Assembly: GCA_001825665.1 (NCBI GenBank)
Contig: MHXZ01000084.1
Coordinates: 1 to 63,955 of the forward strand
Direction of reading: 5' to 3'
DNA: 63,955 nucleotides
DNA from: Planctomycetes bacterium GWF2_41_51
GTDB taxonomy: Bacteria > Planctomycetota > Phycisphaerae > Sedimentisphaerales > UBA12454
Under the pieces are notes generated by a model that did not search any database, was not told where the DNA came from, and worked only from the letters and a program-made list of their open reading frames with translations. A program made the position numbers and the translations under genes. Numbering within the stretch: position 1 is the first letter of the stretch; every line of letters begins with the position of its first letter. Below, piece by piece: positions 160 through 63,955 of this stretch.

Positions 160-1578
160 TTAATTTCTTTTTAACCATTGATTAATGTTTTCAGCGGCTT
201 TTCGGCCTGTGTCGATTGCTTTTACGACAAGTGAAGCGCCGAGCAGCGAATCGCCGGCGACAAAAACGGCCGGGTCACTGGACTGGAAGTCATTGCAGGC
301 GATATTTCCATTTTCGTTTAATTTAAGGCCAAGGCTGTTTACAAGCCCGTCATGTGTAACGTGCAAAAATCCCATTGCGATAATTACGAGGTCTGTTTTG
401 ATATTAAATTCCGTTCCTTCGATTTCTTTAATGTTCCAGCCTCGCGGGGTTTTAACCCATTCAACCGAGCAGCCGCAGAGATCGCTGACGCTTGTTTCTA
501 CGCCTGAGAGCTTTGTGGTTTTTACACTCCACATTCTTTCGCAGCCTTCGAGATGCGATGAAGATGTACGCATAATTCTGGGCCAGTTTGGCCATGGCGT
601 ATCTGGCGGACGGGTTTCGGGCGGTTTTGGCAAAATTTCAAGCTGGTAAATATTTTTCGCGCCCTGACGACGTGCGGTTCCGACGCAATCGCTGCCGGTG
701 TCTCCGCCGCCGATTACGACTACGGATTTGTCTTTGGCGGAAATAATTCTGCCTTCGATTTTTTCTCCGCCACAAATTTTGTTCTGGCCTGCGAGATAGT
801 CAAGTGCGAAAACGACATTTTCAAAACCACGCCCTATTACGGCAAGGTCTCGCGGCTGTCCTGCGCCCATCGTTATACAAGTACAATCGAACATCTGCTT
901 GAGATAATGGGCAGAAATGTCTTTTCCTACTTCGACGCCTGTCTGGAACTGGATGCCTTCGGCTGCGAGTTGAGCGAGCCTTCGGTCGAGAACGCTTTTT
1001 TCGAGTTTGAAATCAGGAATTCCGTAGCGTAAAAGGCCTCCGATTTTATCGTCTTTTTCGAAAACGACGACGTTATGGCCTGCACGTGCGAGCTGCTGTG
1101 CCGCGGCAAGACCAGCGGGACCTGAACCTATGACGGCGACGCGTTTGCCGGTTTTTTGTTTTGCGATTATCGGTTTAATCCAGCCTTCTTCGAAACCGCG
1201 CTCGACAATTTGCAATTCGATTTGTCTGATGAAAACAGGCTCATCGTTGATAGCGAGCGTGCAGGCGGTTTCGCAGGGAGCGGGGCAAACACGTCCGGTG
1301 AATTCCGGAAAATTATTTGTCGAATGCAAAAGGTCACAAGCCTGCTGCCATTGGCCTTTATAAACCAAATCGTTAAATTCGGGGATGTTGTTTCCGAGCA
1401 GACACCCCAAGCCGTGGCAGAAAGGTATGCCGCAGTCGATACAACGCGCGGATTGCTCAATGATGTCGTCAGGGGTGAGCGACAATTCTACTTGGCGATA
1501 ATCGAGGATTCGCTGCTCGATCGGGCGATAACCTGATTTTTTACGTTTATATTTTAAAAAGCCTCTAATTTCTGCCAT
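160..1578 (-). CDS. gltD: glutamate synthase (NADPH) small subunit
   Basis: Small subunit of glutamate synthase. It takes electrons from NAD(P)H through FAD and Fe-S centres to the large subunit, which converts 2-oxoglutarate plus glutamine into two glutamates in the cytoplasm. The 472-residue length is usual for GltD. The N-terminal cysteine-rich Fe-S region is visible (ARCIDCGIPFCHG near residue 50 and GRVCPAPCETACT near residue 100). The FAD-binding motif VIGSGPAGLAAAQ follows at about 148, and a second Rossmann motif VVVIGGGDTGSDC at about 287. The C-terminal AVFVAGD segment is typical of this flavoprotein family. It starts 41 bases after the gltB stop and is surely co-transcribed with it. 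Confidence 0.97.
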   Translation of the reverse strand: MAEIRGFLKYKRKKSGYRPIEQRILDYRQVELSLTPDDIIEQSARCIDCGIPFCHGLGCLLGNNIPEFNDLVYKGQWQQACDLLHSTNNFPEFTGRVCPAPCETACTLAINDEPVFIRQIELQIVERGFEEGWIKPIIAKQKTGKRVAVIGSGPAGLAAAQQLARAGHNVVVFEKDDKIGGLLRYGIPDFKLEKSVLDRRLAQLAAEGIQFQTGVEVGKDISAHYLKQMFDCTCITMGAGQPRDLAVIGRGFENVVFALDYLAGQNKICGGEKIEGRIISAKDKSVVVIGGGDTGSDCVGTARRQGAKNIYQLEILPKPPETRPPDTPWPNWPRIMRTSSSHLEGCERMWSVKTTKLSGVETSVSDLCGCSVEWVKTPRGWNIKEIEGTEFNIKTDLVIIAMGFLHVTHDGLVNSLGLKLNENGNIACNDFQSSDPAVFVAGDSLLGASLVVKAIDTGRKAAENINQWLKRN

Positions 1579-1619
1579 CTAACTATTTCCAATAATCAAT
1601 TTCCAAATTTCAATTTGAA

Positions 1620-6179
<4,560 letters not shown>

Positions 6180-6265: not shown

Positions 6266-8374
6266 TTATTTTATGAACAACATTTCCGCATAAGTCGGCA
6301 GCGGCCACATCTTTGCATCGACAATCATCTCAAGCTCGTCGGCGGCCTTTCTGACTTTGTTCATCGCGGTAACTATTGCATCTCTGCAATTTTCCGCTTT
6401 TTTGACTGAGTTGTCAATATCACATACACCAGAAATCGCATTTTTAAGTTCTTCAATGCCATTGTTGAGGTCTGTAATCAGCCCGCAGGTCTTATTGAGA
6501 ATTTTCTTTTCTGTATCCGGATTACTTCCGGCGTCACTAATACGTTCAATAGCTTTTCCAAGTTTCGATGCATATTCGATTGCAACGGGCAGAATTTGTC
6601 TTTGTGCCATATTCAAAGCTGTCTTGCCTTCAATGCAAATTGTCGTACTGTATGCCTCGAGCAGAATTTCAGTTCTTGCTTTCAATTCAGCTTTGCTGAG
6701 AACTTTATGCGTTGTAAACAATTTAACGTTTTCGTCATCCATAATAGTTTTAAGAGAATCAACCATCGATTTGATATTAGGCAGACCTCTCTTTTCGGCT
6801 TCTTTTGCCCATTGCTCGGTGTAGTTGTCACCGTTGAAAATAATTCTGCTGTGTTCTTTGGCAATTTTCGTAAGTATTTTTTGAACCGAAGTTTTTACGT
6901 TTGAACTTTTTTCCAGCTCATCAGCAATTTCCATCAGCGATTGAGCGACGATGGTATTCAAAACAAACATCGGCCCCGCTGTTGATTGGCTGGAACCTAC
7001 CATACGGAACTCAAATTTATTACCTGTGAACGCGAACGGAGAAGTTCTATTTCTATCGGTACTGTCTTTGGGAAGATGCGGCAGAGAAGAAACGCCGAGC
7101 TTCAACTGGCCTCCGACTTTGGATGTCTTTGCGCCGCCGACTGCAAGTTGTTCAACTATATCTGTTAATTGATCGCCCAAAAAGATTGATACGATTGCAG
7201 GGGGAGCTTCGTGAGCGCCCAGTCTGTGGTCGTTGCCGGGAGATGCAACACCTGCGCGAAGCAGTTTTGCGTATTTATCGACTGCCTTGATAACAGCACA
7301 GAGCATAACAAGGAATACCATATTATCGTGAGGGGTGCTTCCGGGTTCGAGCAAATTAACTCCGTCATCTGTTACCAAGCTCCAGTTGTTGTGCTTTCCT
7401 GAGCCGTTAACGCCTCTGAAGGGTTTTTCGTACAACAGACACACGAGGTTATTTCTTAGAGCAATTTTTTGCAGTGTTTCCATCACAAGCTGATTGTGGT
7501 CAGTGGCGACATTTACGGTGCCGAAAACGGGAGCAAGTTCGTATTGCGCGGGCGAAACTTCATTATGCTGAGTCTTTGCAGAAACGCCAAGTTTCCAAAG
7601 CTCGAAGTTTACATCGTGCATAAATGAAGCGACTCTTTCATGCAGAGCACCGAAATAATGGTCACTCATTTCCTGTCCGCGAGGAGTAGAAGCGCCAAAG
7701 AGAGTTCGGCCTGTGAGCATAATATCAAGTCTCTTATCATAGAATTTTTTGTCAATCAGGAAGTATTCCTGTTCAGGTCCTAAAGTTGCGCCGACAGTTT
7801 TTGTATTAGTATTTCCCAATGCTTTCAAAACCCTGACAGCTTGTTTGTTAAGAGCGTCCATCGAACGCAGCAGGGGAGTCTTTTTGTCGAGGGCTTCGGC
7901 GTTGTACGAACAGAACGCACATGGTATGAAAAGAGTTATGTTTTTTCCGGTTTCTTTAATGAATACCGGGCTTGTGCAATCCCATGCGGTGTAGCCGCGA
8001 GCTTCAAATGTAGCTCTTAATCCGCCTGACGGAAAACTCGAAGCGTCTGGTTCGCCCTGGATAAGTTCTTTGCCGCTGAACTCCATAATAGTTGTGCCTT
8101 CGGCAGTCGGAGAAATGAATGAATCGTGCTTTTCAGCGGTAAGACCAGTCATCGGCTGGAACCAGTGACAAAAATGTGTTGCGCCTTTTTCAATTGCCCA
8201 GTCCTTCATGGCATTGGCAACAACATTGGCCAGAGTCATTTCAAGAAACCTGCTCTCGGCAATAGTCTTTTTGAATTCCTTGTAAACGTTCTTCGGCAGA
8301 CGTTCTCTCATGACAACATCGTTGAAAACATTTTTGCCGAATAAAGCCGTTACCGACTCAAAATCAGTACTCAT
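6266..8374 (-). CDS. glnN: glutamine synthetase type III
   Basis: Glutamine synthetase of the GSIII class (GlnN). It makes glutamine from glutamate, ammonium and ATP in the cytoplasm. Its 702 residues match GSIII (about 700-730) and not GSI (about 450-470). The N-terminal GSIII-specific region is present ([14 protein letters not shown] near residue 25, [21 protein letters not shown] near 70). The catalytic core includes [10 protein letters not shown] (about 203-212), the [13 protein letters not shown]-binding motif (about 318) and the arginine-rich [16 protein letters not shown] segment. It lies upstream of gltBD in the same direction, downstream of the amt1-glnK1 operon. A sigma-54 promoter ends 46 bases before the start codon, and four operator-like dyads lie farther upstream. 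GSIII is typical of Bacteroidota, cyanobacteria and planctomycetes. Confidence 0.96.
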
Positions 8375-8419: not shown

Positions 8420-8435
8420 TGCAATTCGCATACCA
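8420..8435 (-). promoter_or_regulatory. sigma-54 promoter of glutamine synthetase gene
   Basis: Minus-strand TGGTATGCGAATTGCA keeps the invariant GG and GC doublets at -24/-12 with exactly 10 bases between them. This predicts a start near 8409 and a 35-base leader before the ATG at 8374. It is weaker than the two other sigma-54 promoters in the island (T instead of C after GG). Confidence 0.7.
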
Positions 8436-8522: not shown

Positions 8523-8601
8523 TACAAAAATGTATATTTTAGCTGATAATTCTACTTTTTTGTAACTTTTACACATTTGTCATAAAACTTACAAATATGT
8601 A
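8523..8601. promoter_or_regulatory. four TACA-N4-TGTA dyads, putative upstream activating sites of glnN
   Basis: Sites at 8523-8534 (TACAAAAATGTA, perfect half-sites), 8553-8564 (TACTTTTTTGTA), 8570-8581 (TACACATTTGTC) and 8590-8601 (TACAAATATGTA, perfect). They sit about 115-190 bp upstream of the predicted sigma-54 start, the usual range for enhancer-binding proteins. Start-to-start spacings are 30, 17 and 20 bases. The same dyad precedes the other nitrogen operons here. The NifA-like activator at 13272-14801 is the likeliest binder, by inference. Confidence 0.65.
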
Positions 8602-8968: not shown

Positions 8969-10291
8969 TTATTCGAGCATTGTGTAGGCTCGTTCGTTGT
9001 GCTCGGATAGATCCAATCCGATTGTTTCGTTTTCATGCGTGGCACGAACGCCGATAAAGACATCAACTATTTTAAATATTATGTATGTACCTATCAAAGC
9101 GTAACCAAATGTTGCTGCGACAGCGATAAGCTGAATGTATAATTGTTTCGGGTTGCCTGCAAACAAGCCGTCAGCGCCCAAAGGATTTATTGCTTTTGAT
9201 GCGAATAAGCCGGCAGCGATGGTTCCCCAGAAACCGCTGATGCCGTGCACTCCGAAGGCATCGAGCGAATCGTCATAGTTAAATGCACGTTTAATATAAC
9301 TTACCGCGATAAAGCAGAAGATACTGGCGGTGATGCCGATAATCAAAGCCGACCATATACCGACATATCCTGCCGCTGGAGTAATTGCGGCAAGACCTGC
9401 AATCGCACCGGATATTGTTCCGAGCATTGTGGGATTGCCATTAAGCTTCCAATCGATAACCGCCCATGTAAGAGCTGCCGCGGCACCAGCGGTGTTTGTA
9501 ACTACAAAGGCGTTAACCGCGATTCCGTTTGCACCTAAGGCGCTGCCGGCGTTAAAGCCGAACCAGCCAAACCACAGCAGGGCGGCACCTAAAACACTAA
9601 AGGGCAAATTGTGCGGAGCGATTGCATATTTGTCATAGCATGATCTTCTTCCGATTACCAAAGCGGCCACTAAAGCTGCGATTCCGGCGTTAATATGAAC
9701 GACTGTTCCGCCTGCGAAATCAAGCACACCCATATTTCTTAGCCAGCCTCCGGTACCCCAGACCCAATGCGCCATCGGGTCGTAAATAAAAGTCGCCCAA
9801 AGCAAAATAAAAACCAGGTAAGCGGAAAATTTCATACGCTCTGCAAACGCGCCGATAATGAGAGCAGGAGTGATGATGGCGAACATAGCCTGAAAAATCA
9901 TAAATGCCTGGTGTGGAATTGTTGCGCCGTAATCTGAATAAGGTTCGAGGCTGACGCCTTTGAGTCCGAACCATTGCAGTCCGCCAATAAAACCATTTCC
10001 CGGCGCAAAAGAAATACTGTATCCGATTATTACCCAGTGAATACTGAGAACGGCTAGCGCGATGAAACACTGCATTAGAACGCTAAGATAATTTTTTCGC
10101 CGAACAAGACCGCCATAGAAAAAGGCAAGCCCCGGCGTCATCAGCATTACCAGTGCAGCGGACATAAGTATCCACGCGGTGTCGCCCGTATCAGCTTTTG
10201 GAACTGCCGCCGAATCCTGCGCAAAACACAGGCAGGCCGGAATTGTTAGAAAAAAGGCGCAGCAAATCAATTTGCGTACACTAACCTTCAT
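8969..10291 (-). CDS. amt: ammonium transporter (Amt family), copy 1 with signal peptide
   Basis: Ammonium channel of the inner membrane with an N-terminal cleavable signal peptide (KLICCAFFLTIPACLCFA, then the mature end QDSAAV). The first transmembrane segment carries the family motif PGLAFFYGGLVRRKN. The pore twin-histidine positions are visible in VVHINAGIAAL and GVHGISGFWGT. I place the start at the ATG at 10291 because the GTG at 10300 overlaps the likely Shine-Dalgarno (AAGGAAG). It is co-transcribed with glnK 15 bases downstream. A near-perfect sigma-54 promoter and two perfect operator dyads precede it, so it should be induced under nitrogen limitation. Confidence 0.95.
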   Translation of the reverse strand: MKVSVRKLICCAFFLTIPACLCFAQDSAAVPKADTGDTAWILMSAALVMLMTPGLAFFYGGLVRRKNYLSVLMQCFIALAVLSIHWVIIGYSISFAPGNGFIGGLQWFGLKGVSLEPYSDYGATIPHQAFMIFQAMFAIITPALIIGAFAERMKFSAYLVFILLWATFIYDPMAHWVWGTGGWLRNMGVLDFAGGTVVHINAGIAALVAALVIGRRSCYDKYAIAPHNLPFSVLGAALLWFGWFGFNAGSALGANGIAVNAFVVTNTAGAAAALTWAVIDWKLNGNPTMLGTISGAIAGLAAITPAAGYVGIWSALIIGITASIFCFIAVSYIKRAFNYDDSLDAFGVHGISGFWGTIAAGLFASKAINPLGADGLFAGNPKQLYIQLIAVAATFGYALIGTYIIFKIVDVFIGVRATHENETIGLDLSEHNERAYTMLE

Positions 10292-10356
10292 TGGTACCAC
10301 TTCCTTTCTGATTATCCAAATGTGTTAGTAAGGTAAATGTAATTTATTGCTAATTA

Positions 10357-10372
10357 AGCAAGAAATGTGCCA
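10357..10372 (-). promoter_or_regulatory. sigma-54 promoter of amt1-glnK1
   Basis: Minus-strand TGGCACATTTCTTGCT matches the -24/-12 consensus (TGGCAC-N5-TTGCW) throughout. It predicts a start near 10346 and a leader of about 55 bases. Confidence 0.88.
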
Positions 10373-10449: not shown

Positions 10450-10491
10450 TACATTTTTGTAAATTAAACCTGTTAAAGCTACATTTATGTA
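10450..10491. promoter_or_regulatory. paired TACA-N4-TGTA dyads upstream of amt1
   Basis: Two perfect copies, TACATTTTTGTA at 10450-10461 and TACATTTATGTA at 10480-10491, with 30-base spacing (about three helical turns). They lie about 105-145 bp upstream of the predicted sigma-54 start, as expected for an activator's enhancer sites. Confidence 0.72.
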
Positions 10492-12289: not shown

Positions 12290-13060
12290 TTAAAAAGATT
12301 TTGAAATGCTTACGCCTGTAAAGAAGTAATCGCTCGATGAGCTGTATACATCACTATCGCGAAGAGCACCATCGACAAGCGTTACATAGTTAACACTCGG
12401 TTTTACAATCCAGTCGCCGGGAAAACATATCGGCAACGCCAAAGTAAAAGTCAGATCATTTAGACGTGAATCGTCAACGCCCCAATAGTCAACGTTATAG
12501 GTGCTGTTTGCCCAACCTATACTGGCTCCCCATTGGAAGTTGCAATAGCAGGTTTCTGTGAAAGATGCAAATTTTTCGTAGGTGTGCCCGATGCTGAAAT
12601 TAGCATAGGTTCCATTTTCATTGCCGAGACCGTGATATACTTTAAATGTAGGGTTTAAAGGCAAATCAAAATTGAACCCCCAGTATAATTCTGTTGTATC
12701 AGTAGCAGCAAGGCTTGGAAAGTGATAATGTATCACACCGATTGAATAACCGATTATGCTTTCCTCACTCAATTTGCTGCTATAATCGAGCACCAAATCA
12801 TATTCTGTGAATTCACCGCTATTATCGGCTGTGCCGTAATCTGTCATATTAACGTTTCCCCATGCGGTAGCTGTCCAACCTTTATAGTTTGCACTAATGC
12901 TTGGCTGAAATACAAAATCATCATTCAGTAATTGCCCTCGCCAGACATACTTGCTGTAGAAATCGCTTGTAAGAGTAAAACCAATTTTGTCATCGCTTTC
13001 GGCCAACACGGCAGAAGATGCGATAAACAAATACAAAACCATTGTTGGCAACTTTTTCAT
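12290..13060 (-). CDS. TorF-type putative outer membrane beta-barrel protein
   Basis: Predicted outer membrane protein of 256 residues with a signal peptide (KKLPTMVLYLFIASSAVLA). The mature N-terminus GFTLTSDFYSKYVWRGQLL resembles the TIGR02001/TorF putative porin family, whose members often lie beside ammonium transport genes. It has alternating beta-strand character and ends in a terminal phenylalanine (VSISKSF), as expected of a beta-signal. The start is the internal ATG at 13060, preceded by GGAG, and not the longer open frame from 13231, which would run across the promoter. As first gene of the operon with amt2 and glnK2, under sigma-54 control, it may let ammonium or small nitrogen compounds cross the outer membrane. 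That role is inferred from context. Confidence 0.82.
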   Translation of the reverse strand: MKKLPTMVLYLFIASSAVLAESDDKIGFTLTSDFYSKYVWRGQLLNDDFVFQPSISANYKGWTATAWGNVNMTDYGTADNSGEFTEYDLVLDYSSKLSEESIIGYSIGVIHYHFPSLAATDTTELYWGFNFDLPLNPTFKVYHGLGNENGTYANFSIGHTYEKFASFTETCYCNFQWGASIGWANSTYNVDYWGVDDSRLNDLTFTLALPICFPGDWIVKPSVNYVTLVDGALRDSDVYSSSSDYFFTGVSISKSF

Positions 13061-13118
13061 TTCTTTGTCTCCGTAGAAAAATCCATTTATTTTTTTTAAT
13101 AACAATGCAGTTATACAA

Positions 13119-13134
13119 AGCAACATCCGTGCCA
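13119..13134 (-). promoter_or_regulatory. sigma-54 promoter of torF-like-amt2-glnK2 operon
   Basis: Minus-strand TGGCACGGATGTTGCT is a full match to the -24/-12 consensus. Predicted start near 13108, about 48 bases before the ATG at 13060. Confidence 0.9.
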
Positions 13135-13226: not shown

Positions 13227-13267
13227 TACAAAAATGTATAATGGACTTATTTGTAAACATTTTTGTA
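13227..13267. promoter_or_regulatory. paired TACA-N4-TGTA dyads upstream of torF-like-amt2 operon
   Basis: TACAAAAATGTA at 13227-13238, extended by TA on both sides into TATACAAAAATGTATA, and AACATTTTTGTA at 13256-13267. Spacing is 29 bases. They lie 120-160 bp upstream of the predicted start and immediately after the stop codon of the activator gene. Confidence 0.7.
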
Positions 13268-13271
13268 TGTT

Positions 13272-14801
13272 TTATGATAGCAATTTTGGGAAGATTCCGT
13301 ATTTTTTAATTTTATAACCGAGGATTCTCTCTGTTAAACCCAGTTCTTTAGCAGATTTTCTTTGTTGACCGTTAAATTTTTTGAGTGAATCGATAATCAA
13401 TTCTTTTTCTTTGTTTTCAATGATTTCAGAAAGTGACCGGCTTGAAGTCGCTTCGCTTCTTTTAATAATCTGTAATGAAGGAGGCATGTGTTCGGAACGA
13501 ATGACATCATCGTTGCAAAGTAGAACGGCTCTTTCGATACAGTTTTCCAGTTCGCGCACATTGCCGGGCCAATGATAACTTGTGAGCATTTCGATAGCGG
13601 GAGTGGAAAGACGTGTAATTCTTTTATTGTTTTCTTTTGCGAATTGCTCAAGAAAATAATCAGCGAGGAGCATAATGTCATCTTTCCTTTCACGCAGCGG
13701 AGGAAGAAAAATCGGGAAGACATTAATTCTGTAATAAAGATCTTCTCTGAAAAGTTTTTCTTTAATTTGTTCTTCAAGATTTTTGTTCGTAGCGACAATG
13801 ATTCTTACATTGGCTTTTATTGTGTCGATGCCGCCGACGCGTTCAAATTCCTTGAATTGAATGATTCTAAGCAGTTTAACCTGGAGATTCATAGAGAAAT
13901 CGCCGATTTCATCAAGAAAAATTGTTCCGCCATTAGCTTTTTCGAACCTGCCGATTTTTCGTTCTATAGCACCAGTAAACGCACCTTTTTCATGGCCGAA
14001 TAATTCGCTTTCGAGCAGTGTTTCCGGCAGTGCAGTACAGTTTACTTTTACAAAAGGCTTATTGGCTCTGCTGCTGTTATAATGAACAGCATGAGCAACA
14101 AGGTCTTTGCCTGTTCCGCTTTCGCCGCGAATCAAAACTGTTGCGTTGCTGTCGGCGACCTGTTCTATGAGTCTGTAAATCTGCTTCATAGCATTGCTTG
14201 TGCCGACCATATTATCAACGTTGAAATGTGTTTTTAATTCCTGGCGAAGCCGAAGATTTTCTTCTGAAAGCTGTCTGCGGTCGGATTCGACAAGTTTATT
14301 TAGTTTTACAGCCTGAGCAATCATTGTCGCAATGACATTTAGAAGATTAAGCGTCGATTCAGGGTCGTCTCCTTTTTGGGTCTGTCTGTCGACACTTAGA
14401 GTCCCGATGGTTTTGCCTTCAAGTTTGATGGGTACACAGTAGAATGAAATATGTTTGCCTTCAGTTTCTTTCCGCGAATGGGTACGATGAAGAAATCTGT
14501 TGTCTTTAGCGATATCCGGGACGACGATTTCTTTACCAGTTTGAACGACTGTGCCTGTTATGCCTTCACCAATTTTGTAACTGCCGAGCTGTTTTGATTT
14601 TTCGCTTAGACCATGAGCGACTTTGATGTTTATAATCTCAGTTCCGGGATCGAGCAGGGTAATAGTTCCTTTTTGCAGTTTTACGTGGGTATCAAGCGAT
14701 TTCAAAATAGCTTTAAGGGTCAGCTCAAGGTCAAGGGTATCAGCGAAAGCCCTTGCCATATCGCCCAATAAGAGCACTTCATTTGAAAGTTTACCGGCCA
14801 T
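13272..14801 (-). CDS. NifA-like sigma-54-dependent transcriptional activator
   Basis: Bacterial enhancer-binding protein of 509 residues with the NifA domain order. An N-terminal GAF sensor domain (about 20-170) is followed by an AAA+ domain, then a C-terminal Fis-type helix-turn-helix ([19 protein letters not shown], about 480-500). The AAA+ domain carries Walker A GESGTGKD (226-233), the sigma-54 contact loop GAFTGA (273-278), Walker B FLDEIGD (295-301) and a [11 protein letters not shown]-finger region. It activates RpoN promoters from upstream sites. No nif genes are present, and its neighbours are all ammonium-assimilation genes, so a general nitrogen-control role is more likely than nitrogen fixation. 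The GAF domain may sense 2-oxoglutarate or P-II. Two operator dyads lie 24-64 bases before its start codon, suggesting autoregulation. Confidence 0.93.
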
Positions 14802-14824: not shown

Positions 14825-14865
14825 TACAAAATTGTAGGGTAAATTGCAAAAATTACATTTTTGTC
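14825..14865. promoter_or_regulatory. paired TACA-N4-TGTA dyads in front of the NifA-like gene
   Basis: TACAAAATTGTA at 14825-14836 (perfect half-sites) and TACATTTTTGTC at 14854-14865, 29 bases apart, ending 24 bases before the start codon. No sigma-54 promoter is visible here. The position overlaps the expected core promoter or leader and so suggests negative autoregulation. Confidence 0.62.
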
Positions 14866-38892: not shown

Positions 38893-40244
38893 TATAAATT
38901 TGTTCCATTCGATTTGATAACATCTTTATACCACAGTGCCGAATCTTTCAGCGTTCTTTTCTGCGTCTGGTAATCGACATAAACTAAACCGAAGCGTTTG
39001 CTGTAGCCGTGTGCCCATTCAAAATTATCCATAATCGACCAGTAAAAATATCCTTTGCACGGAACCCCCTCATCGCTTGCCCGTTTATATTCTTTCAGAT
39101 GCCTGCCGACATAATCGATTCTTTGCGGGTCATGAATCTTCCCATCCGAATGCACCCAGTCGCAATTGGCCATTCCGTTTTCAGTAATCACAATCGGCAG
39201 TTTATATCGCTCATAGAAAAATCTCGGCCCCCAGTAAAGCGCCTCCGGCGTAACCTCCCAATCCATCGCGGTCAGCGGATACCCCGGTGTCTGCGGCACA
39301 ACCTCAACTCCCGTTTTCAGCGAAGGCCGAACTTTCCAGCCTCGATAAATATTCAAGCCCACAAAATCCAGCGGTTGAGCGATAGTCTTCATATCCGCGT
39401 CATCGAATTTCGGCATTTCATTTTCAAACCTCTTCAAGCCATCTTTCGGATATTTGCCCAGCAGCATCGGGTCTGCAAACCATGGATTATTCATTGTGCT
39501 GTTATCATAAACCGAAAACGTTCCTTTGCGTGCCAGTTCAATATTGATAAAATTATTTTTTTCAGGGATAGCGATAAGAGCGACTAAAGCCGTACCGATT
39601 GACGGTTTGCTTTTCGCGTTTGCTCGTATGACCTGCACCGCTTTTCCATGAGCAAGCAGGCAGTTATGCGCCGTCGTCAGCACATCAGGCAATTCAAGTT
39701 TCAGCCCCGGCGCATGTTCTCCTCTCCGATGTCCCAAATCAATAAAACACTGCGGCTCGTTGAGCGGCATCCATTTTGTGACTCTGTTTGAAAGTCTGTC
39801 GACGATGATTTTTGTATATTCCGCGAACCAGTCGCTGCTCTGGCGATTGAGCCAGCCGCCTTTATCAAAAAGCGTCTGCGGATAATCCCAGTGAAAAAGC
39901 GTAACCCAAGGCTCAATTTTATGCTCGAGCAGACAATCAATCAGCCTGTCATAAAACTCAAGCCCTTTTTCATTTACTTTGCCGATTCCCTCCGGCAGAA
40001 CTCTCGGCCACGATATCGAAAGCCGATACGCTTTAAGTCCCAGCTCCGCCATTATTTTGACATCTTCTTCAAACCTGTGATAATGGTCGCAGGCGACATC
40101 GCCGGTATTTCCGCTGTAAACTTTTCCCGGTTGTTTGCAGAACGTATCCCAAACGGACAAGCCTTTTCCGTCTTCCGCAAATGCGCCTTCAACCTGATAA
40201 CTTGCCGCCGCCGCTCCCCATACGAAATCATTTTCAAATGTCAT
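38892..40244 (-). CDS. bglA: beta-glucosidase, glycoside hydrolase family 1
   Basis: Family GH1 beta-glycosidase of 450 residues, full length. N-terminal FVWGAAAASYQVEGAFAEDG is characteristic, the acid/base Glu is in PLNEPQCF (about 166) and the nucleophile Glu in IVITENGMANCD (about 352). WSIMDNFEWAHGYSKRFGLVYVDY closes the barrel. There is no signal peptide, so it is probably cytoplasmic, acting on imported cellobiose-type sugars. It overlaps the mscL stop by 4 bases. Confidence 0.95.
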   Translation of the reverse strand: MTFENDFVWGAAAASYQVEGAFAEDGKGLSVWDTFCKQPGKVYSGNTGDVACDHYHRFEEDVKIMAELGLKAYRLSISWPRVLPEGIGKVNEKGLEFYDRLIDCLLEHKIEPWVTLFHWDYPQTLFDKGGWLNRQSSDWFAEYTKIIVDRLSNRVTKWMPLNEPQCFIDLGHRRGEHAPGLKLELPDVLTTAHNCLLAHGKAVQVIRANAKSKPSIGTALVALIAIPEKNNFINIELARKGTFSVYDNSTMNNPWFADPMLLGKYPKDGLKRFENEMPKFDDADMKTIAQPLDFVGLNIYRGWKVRPSLKTGVEVVPQTPGYPLTAMDWEVTPEALYWGPRFFYERYKLPIVITENGMANCDWVHSDGKIHDPQRIDYVGRHLKEYKRASDEGVPCKGYFYWSIMDNFEWAHGYSKRFGLVYVDYQTQKRTLKDSALWYKDVIKSNGTNL

Positions 40245-40603
40245 TTTTTTGCTTCTTGTACAACTACAACTCGTGCCCTAATAATTTTATTCATCAGTTT
40301 CACAACAATGAACATCGTAAACGCTACGATGAAAAAATCTATGAGTGTATTAACAAACAGTCCGTAACGCAGTGCAACCGCAGGCACAGCTTCGCCCGTT
40401 GCTTTGGTAGAGGCTTCTTTTAATACGATCTGCAAATTCTTAAAATCGACTCCGCCAAGAACATACCCAATCGGCGGCATTATCACATCGTTCACCAGCG
40501 AATTGACAACCTTGTTAAACGACGTACCGATAACGATGGCAACAGCCATGTCGATTGCATTGCCTTTGATTGCGAACTGTTTAAATTCATTCCAGATTTT
40601 CAT
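40241..40603 (-). CDS. mscL: large-conductance mechanosensitive channel
   Basis: MscL, 120 residues, inner membrane. It opens under extreme membrane tension to release solutes. The N-terminal helix and TM1 pattern EFKQFAIKGNAIDMAVAIVIG are canonical. The periplasmic loop is short, and TM2 is LRYGLFVNTLIDFFIVAFTMFIVVK. It heads an operon with the GH1 glucosidase and DUF952 gene and is divergent from carB. Confidence 0.95.
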   Translation of the reverse strand: MKIWNEFKQFAIKGNAIDMAVAIVIGTSFNKVVNSLVNDVIMPPIGYVLGGVDFKNLQIVLKEASTKATGEAVPAVALRYGLFVNTLIDFFIVAFTMFIVVKLMNKIIRARVVVVQEAKK

Positions 40604-40696
40604 ATTAAGAATCTTATTTCATACATTAAAGAATGCAATATAAAATTTTAGCGTTACTTATAACATCTTATTTTTTCATTTTTTGCTTTTACAAGT

Positions 40697-40749
40697 AACA
40701 AAAATGTATATAATTTCCACAAATTTGTTCACGTACGCACAAAAATGTA
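40697..40749 (+). promoter_or_regulatory. three helically phased TACA-N4-TGTA-like dyads at the carB promoter
   Basis: AACAAAAATGTA (40697-40708), CACAAATTTGTT (40718-40729) and CACAAAAATGTA (40738-40749), start spacings 21 and 20 bases (two helical turns). A TATAAT box at 40709-40714 falls between the first two. The carB ATG is 18 bases after the last site. No sigma-54 promoter is visible. The arrangement suggests repression or promoter-proximal control, in contrast to the distant sites of the nitrogen island. Confidence 0.58.
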
Positions 40750-40767
40750 TTTTTCATGGAGGATCGA

Positions 40768-43700
40768 ATGCCTGGAAGAAAAGACATAAATAAAGTAATG
40801 ATAATAGGTTCGGGTCCGATTGTAATCGGACAGGCCTGTGAATTTGACTATTCAGGCACACAAGCCTGCAAAGCCCTGCGGAAGCTCGGCTACAAAATCG
40901 TTCTTGCAAATTCCAATCCCGCCACGATTATGACCGACCCCGGCATGGCGGATATTACATACATTGAACCTCTGACTCTTGAGGCAATGACCGAAATCAT
41001 TAAAAAAGAGCGTCCCGATGCTCTGCTTCCAAATCTCGGCGGCCAAAGTGCCCTCAATCTTGTTTCAGAATTGAGCAAAGCAGGCGTTCTCGAAAAATAC
41101 AGCGTCAAAGTCATAGGCGTTAACGTCGATGCCATCGAAAGAGGCGAAGACAGAATTGAATTTAAGAATACAATGAGCAAACTCGGCATCGATATGCCCA
41201 AAAGCGCTCCAGCTTACACCGTCGAAGAAGCCGAAAAAATCGCCGACCATCTTGGCTATCCGGTTGTCGTTCGACCCGCATATACTATGGGCGGAACCGG
41301 TGGAGGCCTTGTTTATAATATTGAAGAGCTTAGGCTCGTCGCCGCTCGCGGTATTGCCGCAAGTCTCGTCGGCCAGATCCTGATCGAAGAATCGGTTCTC
41401 GGCTGGGAAGAGCTGGAACTCGAAGTCGTCCGCGATTCCAAAAACCAGATGATTACTGTTTGCTTCATCGAAAACGTCGATGCGATGGGCGTCCACACCG
41501 GCGATTCATACTGCACCGCGCCGATGCTGACAATCGATAAAAAACTTCAGGAAAAACTACAAAAATATTCTTACGATATCGTCGAAGCCATTCAGGTCAT
41601 CGGCGGAACGAACGTCCAGTTCGCCCACGACCCCAAAACAGGCAGGGTGGTCATTATCGAAATCAATCCCCGTACAAGCCGTTCAAGCGCTCTTGCCTCA
41701 AAGGCGACCGGTTTCCCAATTGCACTTGTTTCTGCGATGCTTGCCGGCGGTCTAACTCTCGATGAAATTCCATATTGGCGAGGCGGAACTCTCGACAAAT
41801 ACACTCCATGGGGAGATTACGTGGTCGTAAAATTCGCTCGCTGGGGCTTTGAAAAATTCAAAGGTGTCCAGGATAAACTCGGCACGCAGATGCGCGCTGT
41901 CGGCGAAGTTATGAGCATCGGCAAAAATTATAAAGAAGCCCTTCAAAAAGCCATTCGTTCTCTCGAAAACGGCAGACATGGGCTGGGTTTCGCGAAAGAT
42001 TTCAACAAAAAATCTCTGCCGGAACTTATGGATATGCTCAGAGAGCCTACCAGCGAACGCCAGTTCATTTTATACGAAGCGCTGCGTAAAGGTGCCGACA
42101 TACAGGAGCTTTACCAAAAAACATATATCAAGCCGTATTTCCTTACCCAGATGAAAGAGCTTGTCGAACTCGAAGAAGAAATTCTTAAATATAAAGGTAA
42201 ACAAATTCCCGACAACCTGCTCGAAAAGGCAAAGAAAGACGGCTTTGCCGATAAATATCTCGCGAAGATTCTCGGCATCAACGAAGACAAAATCAGAAAG
42301 CAGCGTACATCTATCGGCGTCGTCGAAGGCTGGCACGCAGTTCCAGTCAGCGGTGTCGAAAACGCGGCTTATTATTATTCCAGCTACAACGCGAAAGATA
42401 CTGTTTCCGTCAGCACCAACAATAAAAAAATTATGGTGCTCGGCGGCGGCCCAAACAGAATCGGCCAAGGCATTGAGTTCGATTACTGCTGTGTCCACGC
42501 GGCCTTTGCTCTTCGTGAAGAAGGCTATGAAACCATAATGGTCAACTGCAATCCCGAAACTGTATCAACTGATTACGATACCTCGGACAAATTGTACTTC
42601 GAGCCGTTGACCGTCGAAGATGTTTTGAGCATCTACGAAAAGGAAAAGCCGCTCGGCATCATCTGCCAGTTCGGCGGACAAACTCCTTTGAATATCGCCG
42701 CAGAATTGGAAAAAGCGGGTGTTAAAATCCTCGGCACAAGCGTCGAAGCAATCGACCTTGCCGAAGACCGCGACAGGTTCCGCGAAAAAATGGAAAGCCT
42801 GAATATCCCAATGCCTAAATCCGCAATGGTTAGTACATTTGAAGAAGCGTTGAAAGCAGCGAAAGATATTGGTTATCCGTTAATGATTCGCCCTTCGTAT
42901 GTTTTGGGCGGTCGCGGCATGGAAGTCATACACGATGACGAAATGCTCAAAAAATATGTCGATGCCGCCGTTGGCGTTACACCTGAAAGACCGTTGCTCA
43001 TTGACAAATTCCTCAGCAACGCTATCGAGTGCGAAGCCGATGCTCTTGCCGATGGCACAAACGCGTTTGTTCCTGCTGTTATGGAACACATCGAACTTGC
43101 AGGTATTCACAGCGGCGATTCAGCCTGCGTCATTCCGCCGATCAGTATTCCGCAAAAACATCTCGATACCATTTACGATTACACTCGAAAGATTGCGATA
43201 AAATTGAACGTTGTCGGCCTGATGAATATGCAGTATGCCATTGCCGATGATATGGTTTATGTCCTCGAAGCAAATCCACGCGCATCGAGAACTGTTCCGC
43301 TTGTCTCAAAAGTCTGCGGGATCCAGATGGCAAGACTCGCCACACAGTTAATGCTCGGCAGTAAAATCAGCGATATGGATCTCAAACCCAAAAAATTCCC
43401 GCACTTCGGCGTAAAGGAATCGGTCTTCCCGTTCAATATGTTCCCGGAAGTTGACCCCATCCTCGGCCCTGAAATGCGTTCCACAGGCGAAGTTCTCGGA
43501 ATGGCTGATTCTTTCGGACTGGCTTTCTACAAATCGCAGGATGCCGCAAAGCAGACTCTTCCTATCAAAGGAACTGTTTTGATTACCGTCAATGATGCTG
43601 ATAAAAAAGCCGTCGTTGACGTCGCGAAAAGATTTTCAAAATTAGGTTTCAAAATTATTTCCACTTCAGGAACATACAAATATCTTTTGGAAAATGGAAT

Positions 43701-43971
43701 TAAAGCCGAATCGGTTTTCAAAATGCAGGAAGGCAGACCGAATATTATAGATGCGATAAAGAATCGTGATATTCAGCTTTTGATAAATACTCCTGCCGGC
43801 AAAACCAGTCAGTACGATGATTCTTATATCCGCAAGTCAGCGATAAAATATAAGATTCCATATATTACAACGATTGCCGCCGCAGTCGCCGCCGCTAAAG
43901 GCGTCGAAGCGATCCAAAAAGGCAAAGGCGCTGTAAAATCCTTGCAGGAATACCACGCCGACATCAAATAA
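40768..43971 (+). CDS. carB: carbamoyl-phosphate synthase large subunit
   Basis: CarB, 1067 residues, makes carbamoyl phosphate from glutamine-derived ammonia, bicarbonate and two ATP for pyrimidine and arginine synthesis. Two homologous ATP-grasp halves are visible: IIGSGPIVIGQACEFDYSG near the start and VLGGGPNRIGQGIEFDYC at about 556. They are followed by an MGS-like allosteric domain at the C-terminus (FKIISTSGTYKYLLENGI). The start is set at 40768 because GGAGG at 40758-40762 is its Shine-Dalgarno and MPGRKDINKV aligns with other CarB N-termini. The in-frame ATG at 40756 would include that site in the coding region. carA is not in the window. Confidence 0.97.
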   Translation: MPGRKDINKVMIIGSGPIVIGQACEFDYSGTQACKALRKLGYKIVLANSNPATIMTDPGMADITYIEPLTLEAMTEIIKKERPDALLPNLGGQSALNLVSELSKAGVLEKYSVKVIGVNVDAIERGEDRIEFKNTMSKLGIDMPKSAPAYTVEEAEKIADHLGYPVVVRPAYTMGGTGGGLVYNIEELRLVAARGIAASLVGQILIEESVLGWEELELEVVRDSKNQMITVCFIENVDAMGVHTGDSYCTAPMLTIDKKLQEKLQKYSYDIVEAIQVIGGTNVQFAHDPKTGRVVIIEINPRTSRSSALASKATGFPIALVSAMLAGGLTLDEIPYWRGGTLDKYTPWGDYVVVKFARWGFEKFKGVQDKLGTQMRAVGEVMSIGKNYKEALQKAIRSLENGRHGLGFAKDFNKKSLPELMDMLREPTSERQFILYEALRKGADIQELYQKTYIKPYFLTQMKELVELEEEILKYKGKQIPDNLLEKAKKDGFADKYLAKILGINEDKIRKQRTSIGVVEGWHAVPVSGVENAAYYYSSYNAKDTVSVSTNNKKIMVLGGGPNRIGQGIEFDYCCVHAAFALREEGYETIMVNCNPETVSTDYDTSDKLYFEPLTVEDVLSIYEKEKPLGIICQFGGQTPLNIAAELEKAGVKILGTSVEAIDLAEDRDRFREKMESLNIPMPKSAMVSTFEEALKAAKDIGYPLMIRPSYVLGGRGMEVIHDDEMLKKYVDAAVGVTPERPLLIDKFLSNAIECEADALADGTNAFVPAVMEHIELAGIHSGDSACVIPPISIPQKHLDTIYDYTRKIAIKLNVVGLMNMQYAIADDMVYVLEANPRASRTVPLVSKVCGIQMARLATQLMLGSKISDMDLKPKKFPHFGVKESVFPFNMFPEVDPILGPEMRSTGEVLGMADSFGLAFYKSQDAAKQTLPIKGTVLITVNDADKKAVVDVAKRFSKLGFKIISTSGTYKYLLENGIKAESVFKMQEGRPNIIDAIKNRDIQLLINTPAGKTSQYDDSYIRKSAIKYKIPYITTIAAAVAAAKGVEAIQKGKGAVKSLQEYHADIK

Positions 43972-62253: not shown

Positions 62254-63955
62254 ATGAGAAGAAACTTTTTGCTGTCTTTCAGCTTTTGTTTATTGTTAAC
62301 TTCGGTAACTTCTTTTACACTTCAAGCACAGACAGATACGTCCGATTCCAACAATTTGAGCGATAATTGGAATGATTTTTTACATTATACCGTTTTAGGA
62401 AGGTACGACCTTGCCGCCGGTTACGCTCAAAAGGTAATCGACAGTAATCCCGACCCGCTGAAATTATTCAAATTAAGCGAAGATAATCCTCGTGGCTACG
62501 CAATTCTGGTTAAAGTCCACGCAAGCAATCCTGAACTTGCGCCTCTTGCCGCAAAAATTCTTGATATTATCGAACAGGGCAGATACCAGCGTCGAACCGC
62601 GGCCGATATCATAACTGACGAAATCAAGAGACTAAGCAGCACAGTTCGCGGCAAATACACAGCAATTGAACGGCTCCGCAACTCAGGCGAATACGCTATA
62701 CCATATATGCTTGATGCAATGGCAGATGAAAACAGGAAAGAAGAATTTCCAAACATAGCTACCGCCCTGCCGGAAATCGGCCGTTCTGCCGTAAGGCCTT
62801 TGACCGCATCACTTGAAATGGAGAATCTTGCAGTAAAGGCTGAGGTCATCAGAGCGCTTGGCAAAATCGGCTATTCTGAATCGCTCGGTTATCTTAAATA
62901 CATCGTCGAAAATGACAAATCTGAACAGCTTCGTGAGCTTGCAATAGAATCGATAAGACAAATCGACGCATCGAACGCCGACAAAAAAGCAGCCGAGATG
63001 TTCTTCCGTACCGCTGAAAATTATTATTACAAAACTGATTCGCTAATGCCCGTTACAGAAGGCAATACAGCAAATATATGGTTCTGGAACGAAGAAAGCA
63101 GCAGCCTAACACGTGAAGCTGTAGATAAAGTTTATTTTCCGGAATTGATGTCAATGCGGACCAGTGAATGGGCGCTGCGTGCCGATAAAGATTTCGGCCA
63201 GGCAATTTCGTTATGGATTGCCTCATTTTTCAGAATTGATGCGACACATATTGCCTATCCTGAATACTTCGGACACGGGCATGCCGATGCGATGACGTAT
63301 GCTGTAACTTCAGGCCCTGAATATCTGCACGAAGCACTTGAGCGGGCGATCAAAGACAACGACAAAGCGGTAGCATTGGGAACAGTCGAAGCACTGGCAC
63401 GCAATGCCGGCGAAAAGTCGCTGATGTTCAGATATAAAACTTCACAGCCGCTTATCGATGCTTTATCATTTAATGATAGAGAAGTGAAATATACCGCTGC
63501 TATAGCGATTGCCTTGGCAGAACCATCTGAAACATTTCCTCAAAGTGAATATGTTATAAATAACCTTGCTTCTGCGATTACTGCAAAACCGGAAGAAAAC
63601 TGGCCTGCCGAAAAAGCTGACAATTATGCGATTCGTGCTGCACAGGCGATGCTGAAACTCGGAGAAACACGGAACAAATCAGTCGATATTTCCAACGCAC
63701 TTGATGCTCTGGTGAAAACAACTGCTGACAGCCGTGATGAAATGAAAATTATTGCCTGTCAGATTCTTGCGTATATTTCAAGCCCGGATGCACAAAGAGC
63801 GATTGCCGAATTAGCTTTAAATGAAAGCTATTCAGTCGAAATAAGAATCGCTGGTTTCGAATCGCTTGCAACTTCTGCGAAAGTAAATGCCAATCAGCTT
63901 CTGGATAATCAGATTGACCGGATTTACAAAATTGTTGAGTCTCGCCAGGTAGATG
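62254..63955 (+). CDS. exported HEAT-repeat protein, truncated by window edge
   Basis: The open frame runs without a stop from the ATG at 62254 to the end (567 codons seen), so the C-terminus is missing. Good Shine-Dalgarno (CGGAGAAG). Signal peptide (FLLSFSFCLLLTSVTSFTLQA), then helical repeats of HEAT/PBS-lyase type: RGKYTAIERLRNSGEYAIPY, AVKAEVIRALGKIGYSES, SEQLRELAIESIRQID, and ALNESYSVEIRIAGFESLA near the edge. Probably a periplasmic scaffold. It is divergent from the GspE-like gene with 208 bases between. Confidence 0.82.
   Translation, partial: MRRNFLLSFSFCLLLTSVTSFTLQAQTDTSDSNNLSDNWNDFLHYTVLGRYDLAAGYAQKVIDSNPDPLKLFKLSEDNPRGYAILVKVHASNPELAPLAAKILDIIEQGRYQRRTAADIITDEIKRLSSTVRGKYTAIERLRNSGEYAIPYMLDAMADENRKEEFPNIATALPEIGRSAVRPLTASLEMENLAVKAEVIRALGKIGYSESLGYLKYIVENDKSEQLRELAIESIRQIDASNADKKAAEMFFRTAENYYYKTDSLMPVTEGNTANIWFWNEESSSLTREAVDKVYFPELMSMRTSEWALRADKDFGQAISLWIASFFRIDATHIAYPEYFGHGHADAMTYAVTSGPEYLHEALERAIKDNDKAVALGTVEALARNAGEKSLMFRYKTSQPLIDALSFNDREVKYTAAIAIALAEPSETFPQSEYVINNLASAITAKPEENWPAEKADNYAIRAAQAMLKLGETRNKSVDISNALDALVKTTADSRDEMKIIACQILAYISSPDAQRAIAELALNESYSVEIRIAGFESLATSAKVNANQLLDNQIDRIYKIVESRQVD

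Follow-up and report, generated by a model that had tools for sequence, protein, structure and literature searches.

A conserved operator array over the carB promoter of a planctomycete and its putative link to a NifA-like regulator of nitrogen assimilation

The window, that is, the whole analysed stretch of 63,955 nucleotides, is one contig of a 4.83-Mb draft genome and contains a nitrogen island with genes for glutamate synthase (GOGAT), glutamine synthetase III (GS III), two ammonium transporters with P-II genes (the latter assigned by reading the sequence) and a NifA-like activator, as well as a carB gene (Table 1). The activator shows the features of a sigma-54 enhancer-binding protein, namely an AAA+ domain (Pfam Sigma54_activat, 5.6e-73) with the GAFTGA motif visible in the translation, a C-terminal HTH domain (HTH_8), and sites located 5' of -24/-12 promoters; no match to a receiver domain was detected in this protein, and a GAF domain occupies the N-terminal place. 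Its score lies just above the curated NCBIfam cut-off for NifA (536 vs 528.85 bits). However, nifH was not found over the cut-off in this genome or in 12 related genomes, and the canonical NifA upstream activating sequence (UAS), TGT-N10-ACA, occurs 10 times in the window, compared to the expected 10.5, and is missing from the UAS at 10450 and 13227. Canonical NifA sites were rejected as the operators of this system. Given that the family lacks nifH and that the canonical sites are at the chance level, the protein is, despite the NifA score, a NifA-like regulator of nitrogen assimilation.

Pairs of sites related to the palindrome TACA-N4-TGTA are located about 100 bp upstream of each of the sigma-54 promoters of the island (8421, 10358 and 13120, all on the minus strand), and in the related genomes, UAS pairs with a 29-30 bp spacing similarly precede the sigma-54 promoters of GS III, amt and P-II genes. 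Beyond the pair that precedes GS III, there are two more sites 20 bp apart (8570-8601), the spacing that is also seen at carB. The gene at 12290-13110 (minus strand) likewise has a sigma-54 promoter and a UAS pair of its own; its product, which is predicted to be exported, matches no Pfam or NCBIfam family, and the true start of the gene probably lies 3' of the promoter at 13120. The promoter of the regulator gene itself (TTGCAA-N17-TATACT) carries one site inside the spacer. Matching sites are present in this promoter across the family, and in all 21 other orthologs examined in the order, usually as a pair 29 bp apart. The combination of UAS pairs with sites in the regulator's own promoter fits a single protein that would activate from a distance and repress its own gene on the spot, and we propose that all these sites are bound by the NifA-like protein.

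Table 1. Genes, promoters and candidate operators in the window
Feature	Position	Strand	Remark
Glutamate synthase	160-6179	-	small subunit 160-1578, large subunit 1620-6179
Glutamine synthetase type III	6266-8374	-	
Sigma-54 promoter of GS III, TGGTATGCGAATTGC	8421-8435	-	2 mismatches
Four UAS sites 5' of GS III	8523-8601	-	8523, 8553, 8570, 8590
amt	8969-10300	-	
Sigma-54 promoter of amt, TGGCACATTTCTTGC	10358-10372	-	exact -24/-12 match
UAS site 5' of amt	10450-10461	-	
UAS site 5' of amt	10480-10491	-	30 bp spacing
Sigma-54 promoter, TGGCACGGATGTTGC	13120-13134	-	exact -24/-12 match
UAS site serving the promoter 13120-13134	13227-13238	-	
UAS site paired with 13227-13238	13256-13267	-	29 bp spacing
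NifA-like sigma-54 activator	13272-14801	-	GAF, AAA+ with GAFTGA, Fis-type HTH
Candidate operator in the regulator's own promoter, TACAATTTTGTA	14825-14836	-	between TTGCAA and TATACT
Second candidate operator in the regulator's own promoter	14854-14865	-	29 bp away
mscL	40241-40603	-	divergent neighbour of carB
Conserved block, TTTTTGCTTTT	40680-40690	+	5' of the carB -10; candidate -35 or upstream element
Operator 1, AACAAAAATGTA	40697-40708	+	directly 5' of the -10; 1 mismatch to TACA-N4-TGTA
TATAAT, carB -10 box	40709-40714	+	immediately 3' of operator 1; invariant in 10 aligned family members
Operator 2, CACAAATTTGTT	40718-40729	+	over the expected transcription start; 2 mismatches to TACA-N4-TGTA
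Operator 3, CACAAAAATGTA	40738-40749	+	within the expected 5' leader; 1 mismatch to TACA-N4-TGTA
carB, carbamoyl-phosphate synthase large subunit	40768-43971	+	lone (carA-less) type

The intergenic region upstream of carB (152 bp, 78% AT) contains three further sites of this type, none of which matches TACA-N4-TGTA perfectly whereas all three are perfect ACA-WWWW-TGT palindromes (40698-40707, 40719-40728 and 40739-40748, with centre spacings of 21 and 20 bp). The likely start of carB is the ATG at 40768 rather than 40756, given the preceding GGAGG (40758-40762) and the alignment to E. coli CarB, in which it corresponds to residue 1. With this start, operator 3 ends 18 bp before the gene, so that the description of the array in the earlier note, i.e., three near-matches with a spacing of 20-21, a TATAAT box and a distance of 18 bases to carB, is accurate. 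A simple sigma-70 scan did not call the carB promoter, the -35 element of which is non-consensus (TTGCTT lies at a distance of 20 from TATAAT), so the promoter assignment rests on the conserved -10 box; a -24/-12 search detected no sigma-54 promoter upstream of carB.

A search for the strict tandem-palindrome pattern across the 4.83-Mb genome identifies only three places, 13228-13266 beside the NifA-like gene, 14826-14864 in the promoter of that gene, and 40698-40748 at carB, compared to no matches to the control pattern in this genome and two forward control matches across 13 genomes. Single palindromes are not enriched genome-wide (178 vs 192 for the reversed control), so a lone palindrome means little, and the single perfect sites at other places in the genome, which do not exceed the control, were set aside as targets. 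With a weight matrix trained on the regulator-promoter and UAS sites of the relatives, from which the carB sites were excluded, the latter rank 9 (operator 1), 11 and 14 among the approximately 64,000 positions of the window; the ranks above them are mostly taken by the island operators. These results support the identification of the carB sites as the same predicted operator that is found in the nitrogen island, and so bear out what the earlier note had claimed. The second carB gene and the adjacent carA were considered as another target and rejected: the genome-wide search places no tandem sites there, and the examined carB2 upstream regions contain no comparable array.

The carB operator set is real and conserved. 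All three sites are retained, with at most 2 mismatches, in 6 of the 11 family members that possess this carB, namely the present genome (G000) and five other species of the family Anaerohalosphaeraceae (Sedimentisphaerales, Planctomycetota; G007, G011, G010, G012 and G006). The earlier note had named absence of the sites from close relatives as an observation that would refute its reading; given their presence in these five genomes, this check did not refute it. The array is not universal, however, with one carB site or degenerate remnants in G008, G003, G004 and G009 and no carB operators found in G005. Despite the loss of carB sites, G009 and G005 keep the regulator, which counts against the proposed link. 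The upstream neighbour is a gene other than mscL in G010, G012 and G006, and the sites are still present there, which ties them to carB and makes mscL an unlikely target. Operator 2 is the best conserved of the three, although this may partly have another cause because the segment is conserved also in genomes that lack sites 1 and 3. Outside the family, a near-match to the site is present in 8 of 52 carB promoters, compared to 1.8 expected (at least 8 in 1 of 500 shuffles); most of these sites lie over the -35, the spacer or the start, and the array as such is mostly absent. Some of the order-level sites are weaker evidence because an overlapping TTGACA supplies the GACA half, and the carB site of G017 has no clear promoter context. 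Across the order, the presence of carB operators does not correlate with that of carA (Fisher p = 1).

That the carB sites belong to another DNA-binding protein, e.g., an arginine or pyrimidine regulator, their likeness to the nitrogen operator being incidental or shared, appears unlikely. The spacing of 20-21 bp does recall paired ARG boxes, the spacing of which is similar. However, a regulator of this kind should mark several biosynthetic promoters, whereas the tandem sites are found nowhere else in the genome but in the NifA-like island, and the nitrogen-site matrix fits the carB sites. Moreover, with 2 mismatches allowed, the window shows no enrichment of TGAAT-N4-ATTCA (48 matches vs 65 expected), and no match falls over 40690-40760, so ARG boxes at the carB promoter were rejected. 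In E. coli, carAB is regulated by ArgR, PurR, RutR, PepA and IHF (PMC6245113), which lends this alternative some appeal; the two cases share operators on or near the core promoter of carbamoyl-phosphate synthase but would differ in the regulator and the signal, and the gene involved here is carB alone rather than carAB.

It seems similarly unlikely, if not slightly more so, that binding of the NifA-like protein at carB serves to activate transcription or only to tune it, for instance, by compensating for the poor -35. The weak -35, the distance between TTGCTT and the -10 box, and the position of one site just 5' of the latter would be compatible with such a role, but there is no detectable sigma-54 promoter, only one of the three sites is located 5' of the expected start, the other two being at it or beyond it, and the order-level sites are mostly not located upstream. 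Repression, which the earlier note had suggested from the placement over a sigma-70-like promoter, is accordingly the natural reading of sites that cover the -10 box and the presumed start. Finally, it is highly improbable that the carB sites are chance palindromes of an AT-rich region or belong to a conserved leader element unrelated to the regulator, because, notwithstanding the base composition and the conservation of operator 2 where the others are lost, 0 of 20,000 dinucleotide shuffles of the intergenic region yielded three ACAWWWWTGT motifs (9 yielded two), and the leader shows no structure (z 0.32), no Rfam family above the gathering score and no terminator, which also led us to reject a leader RNA or attenuator of the pyrimidine type.

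The carB gene of the window encodes a readily recognizable large subunit (1506.9 bits vs the NCBIfam cut-off of 599; full-length alignment to E. coli CarB). It is one of two carB genes in the genome, and the sole carA adjoins the other paralog in the cluster nadE-carB2-carA (nadE was assigned from reading its C-terminal sequence). Among the surveyed loci (L106-L181 and L207-L228), window-type carB has no carA in its fetched flanks, be it in the named loci (about 74, from several phyla) or in the 22 loci of the order, and carA is present in the fetched flanks of the six carB2-like matches. The exceptions to this isolation are G059 and G090, where both carB genes and carA are found together, with carB1, carB2 and carA in one row after an apparent nadE end (G059 C26 22527-29358; G090 C287 26522-33348). 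Window-type CarB is spread over Planctomycetota, Lentisphaerota, deltaproteobacterial lineages, Lachnospiraceae and others. In genomes that are at least 90% complete, carB2 is accompanied by carA in 44 of 44 cases, whereas 7 of the 13 genomes that have only window-type carB contain no detectable carA; carA is present somewhere in 13 of the 16 named genomes with window-type carB. Thus, window-type carB can probably work without CarA in Sedimentisphaerales, and because near-complete genomes carry it without carA, ammonia is likelier than glutamine to be its nitrogen donor. E. coli CarB alone uses ammonia, at high concentrations (PMC6245113). The assumption of the earlier note that the carB enzyme draws its nitrogen from glutamine fits poorly with a lone carB in a genome whose sole carA lies beside the other paralog, and with the seven near-complete genomes that lack carA.

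The interpretation that we consider fairly probable is that the carB palindromes are operators of the NifA-like protein, which would activate the sigma-54-dependent assimilation genes and repress its own gene and carB at sigma-70-type promoters. Binding to the paired sites about 100 bp upstream of the sigma-54 promoters would activate GS III with GOGAT and amt with P-II. In the regulator's own promoter, the sites are placed similarly to those at carB, and at both sigma-70-type promoters, RNA polymerase would be blocked by dimers on the core promoter, which may be linked to each other through protein contacts across two or three turns of the helix. When nitrogen is limiting, the assimilation genes would then go up, and synthesis of the regulator itself and of carB would go down. 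What the sequence itself establishes is the identity of the sites, their restriction to the island and carB within the genome, their conservation and their position; the binding protein, the repression, the signal and the nitrogen donor are parts of this scheme that we infer. Given that the window carB lacks carA, the enzyme switched off would probably be an ammonia-using carbamoyl-phosphate synthase, and the glutamine-using CarA-CarB2 pair, which has no such sites, would be left to supply carbamoyl phosphate. The complete donor switch, in which nitrogen limitation induces GS, GOGAT and Amt, directly shuts off a CarA-independent, ammonia-using CarB and leaves CarA-CarB2 in charge, is a possibility that falls short of being probable. 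If carB does use ammonia, a low-affinity ammonia consumer would be stopped when ammonia is scarce; if the window carB pairs with CarA, the argument of glutamine saving would stand, and the regulatory wiring would be unchanged either way.

The regulator resembles NifA in its domain plan and score but differs in that 13 family genomes lack detectable nifH, TGT-N10-ACA is at the chance level, and the predicted regulon is one of assimilation, not fixation. In enteric bacteria, Nac represses ammonia-using enzymes, e.g., glutamate dehydrogenase; the proposed scheme would likewise shut down a low-affinity route of ammonia use when nitrogen is limiting, but here an enhancer-binding protein would repress directly, without a LysR-type intermediary. 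The precedent is NtrC of E. coli, a sigma-54 nitrogen activator which, at glnALG, activates the sigma-54 promoter glnAp2 and represses the sigma-70 promoter glnAp1 and apparently glnLp (PMC3870243). Repression of sigma-70-type promoters, including its own, is in the present case proposed from the site positions; unlike NtrC, the regulator resembles NifA and has a GAF domain but no receiver match, the operator is TACA-N4-TGTA, and the additional repressed target would be carB, which is absent from the cited account of NtrC.

Few descriptions of nitrogen control exist for Planctomycetota, and one survey called the conservation of NtrB/NtrC in this phylum limited (PMC12316311). A literature search, which covered few subscription journals, found no account of nitrogen assimilation in Sedimentisphaerales and no report of an enhancer-binding protein that controls carbamoyl-phosphate synthase. 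Dual regulators of this kind are known, and what is new here is the target and the operator. With the operator, its activator and the likely repressed targets defined, the regulon becomes testable, and if the interpretation is correct, it would add to the classic NtrC examples a clear instance of another sigma-54 activator that represses housekeeping-type promoters. The analysis also points to a widespread carA-less type of CarB, the nitrogen donor of which is an easily tested question.

Several sites were detected outside these promoters. In G012, tandem perfect sites 18 bp apart precede the gene for glutaminyl-tRNA synthetase (C34 8819-8846, L087); this pair is not conserved in the other family genomes, and glnS was rejected as a target. 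In G011, a reading frame for a HAD-like hydrolase is preceded by paired sites and a match to the sigma-54 promoter (C6 124902-124940, L086). In the window itself, a strong single site, TACAAAATTGTT (63925-63936, matrix rank 6), is located at the end of the contig, so a possible target gene might lie beyond it.
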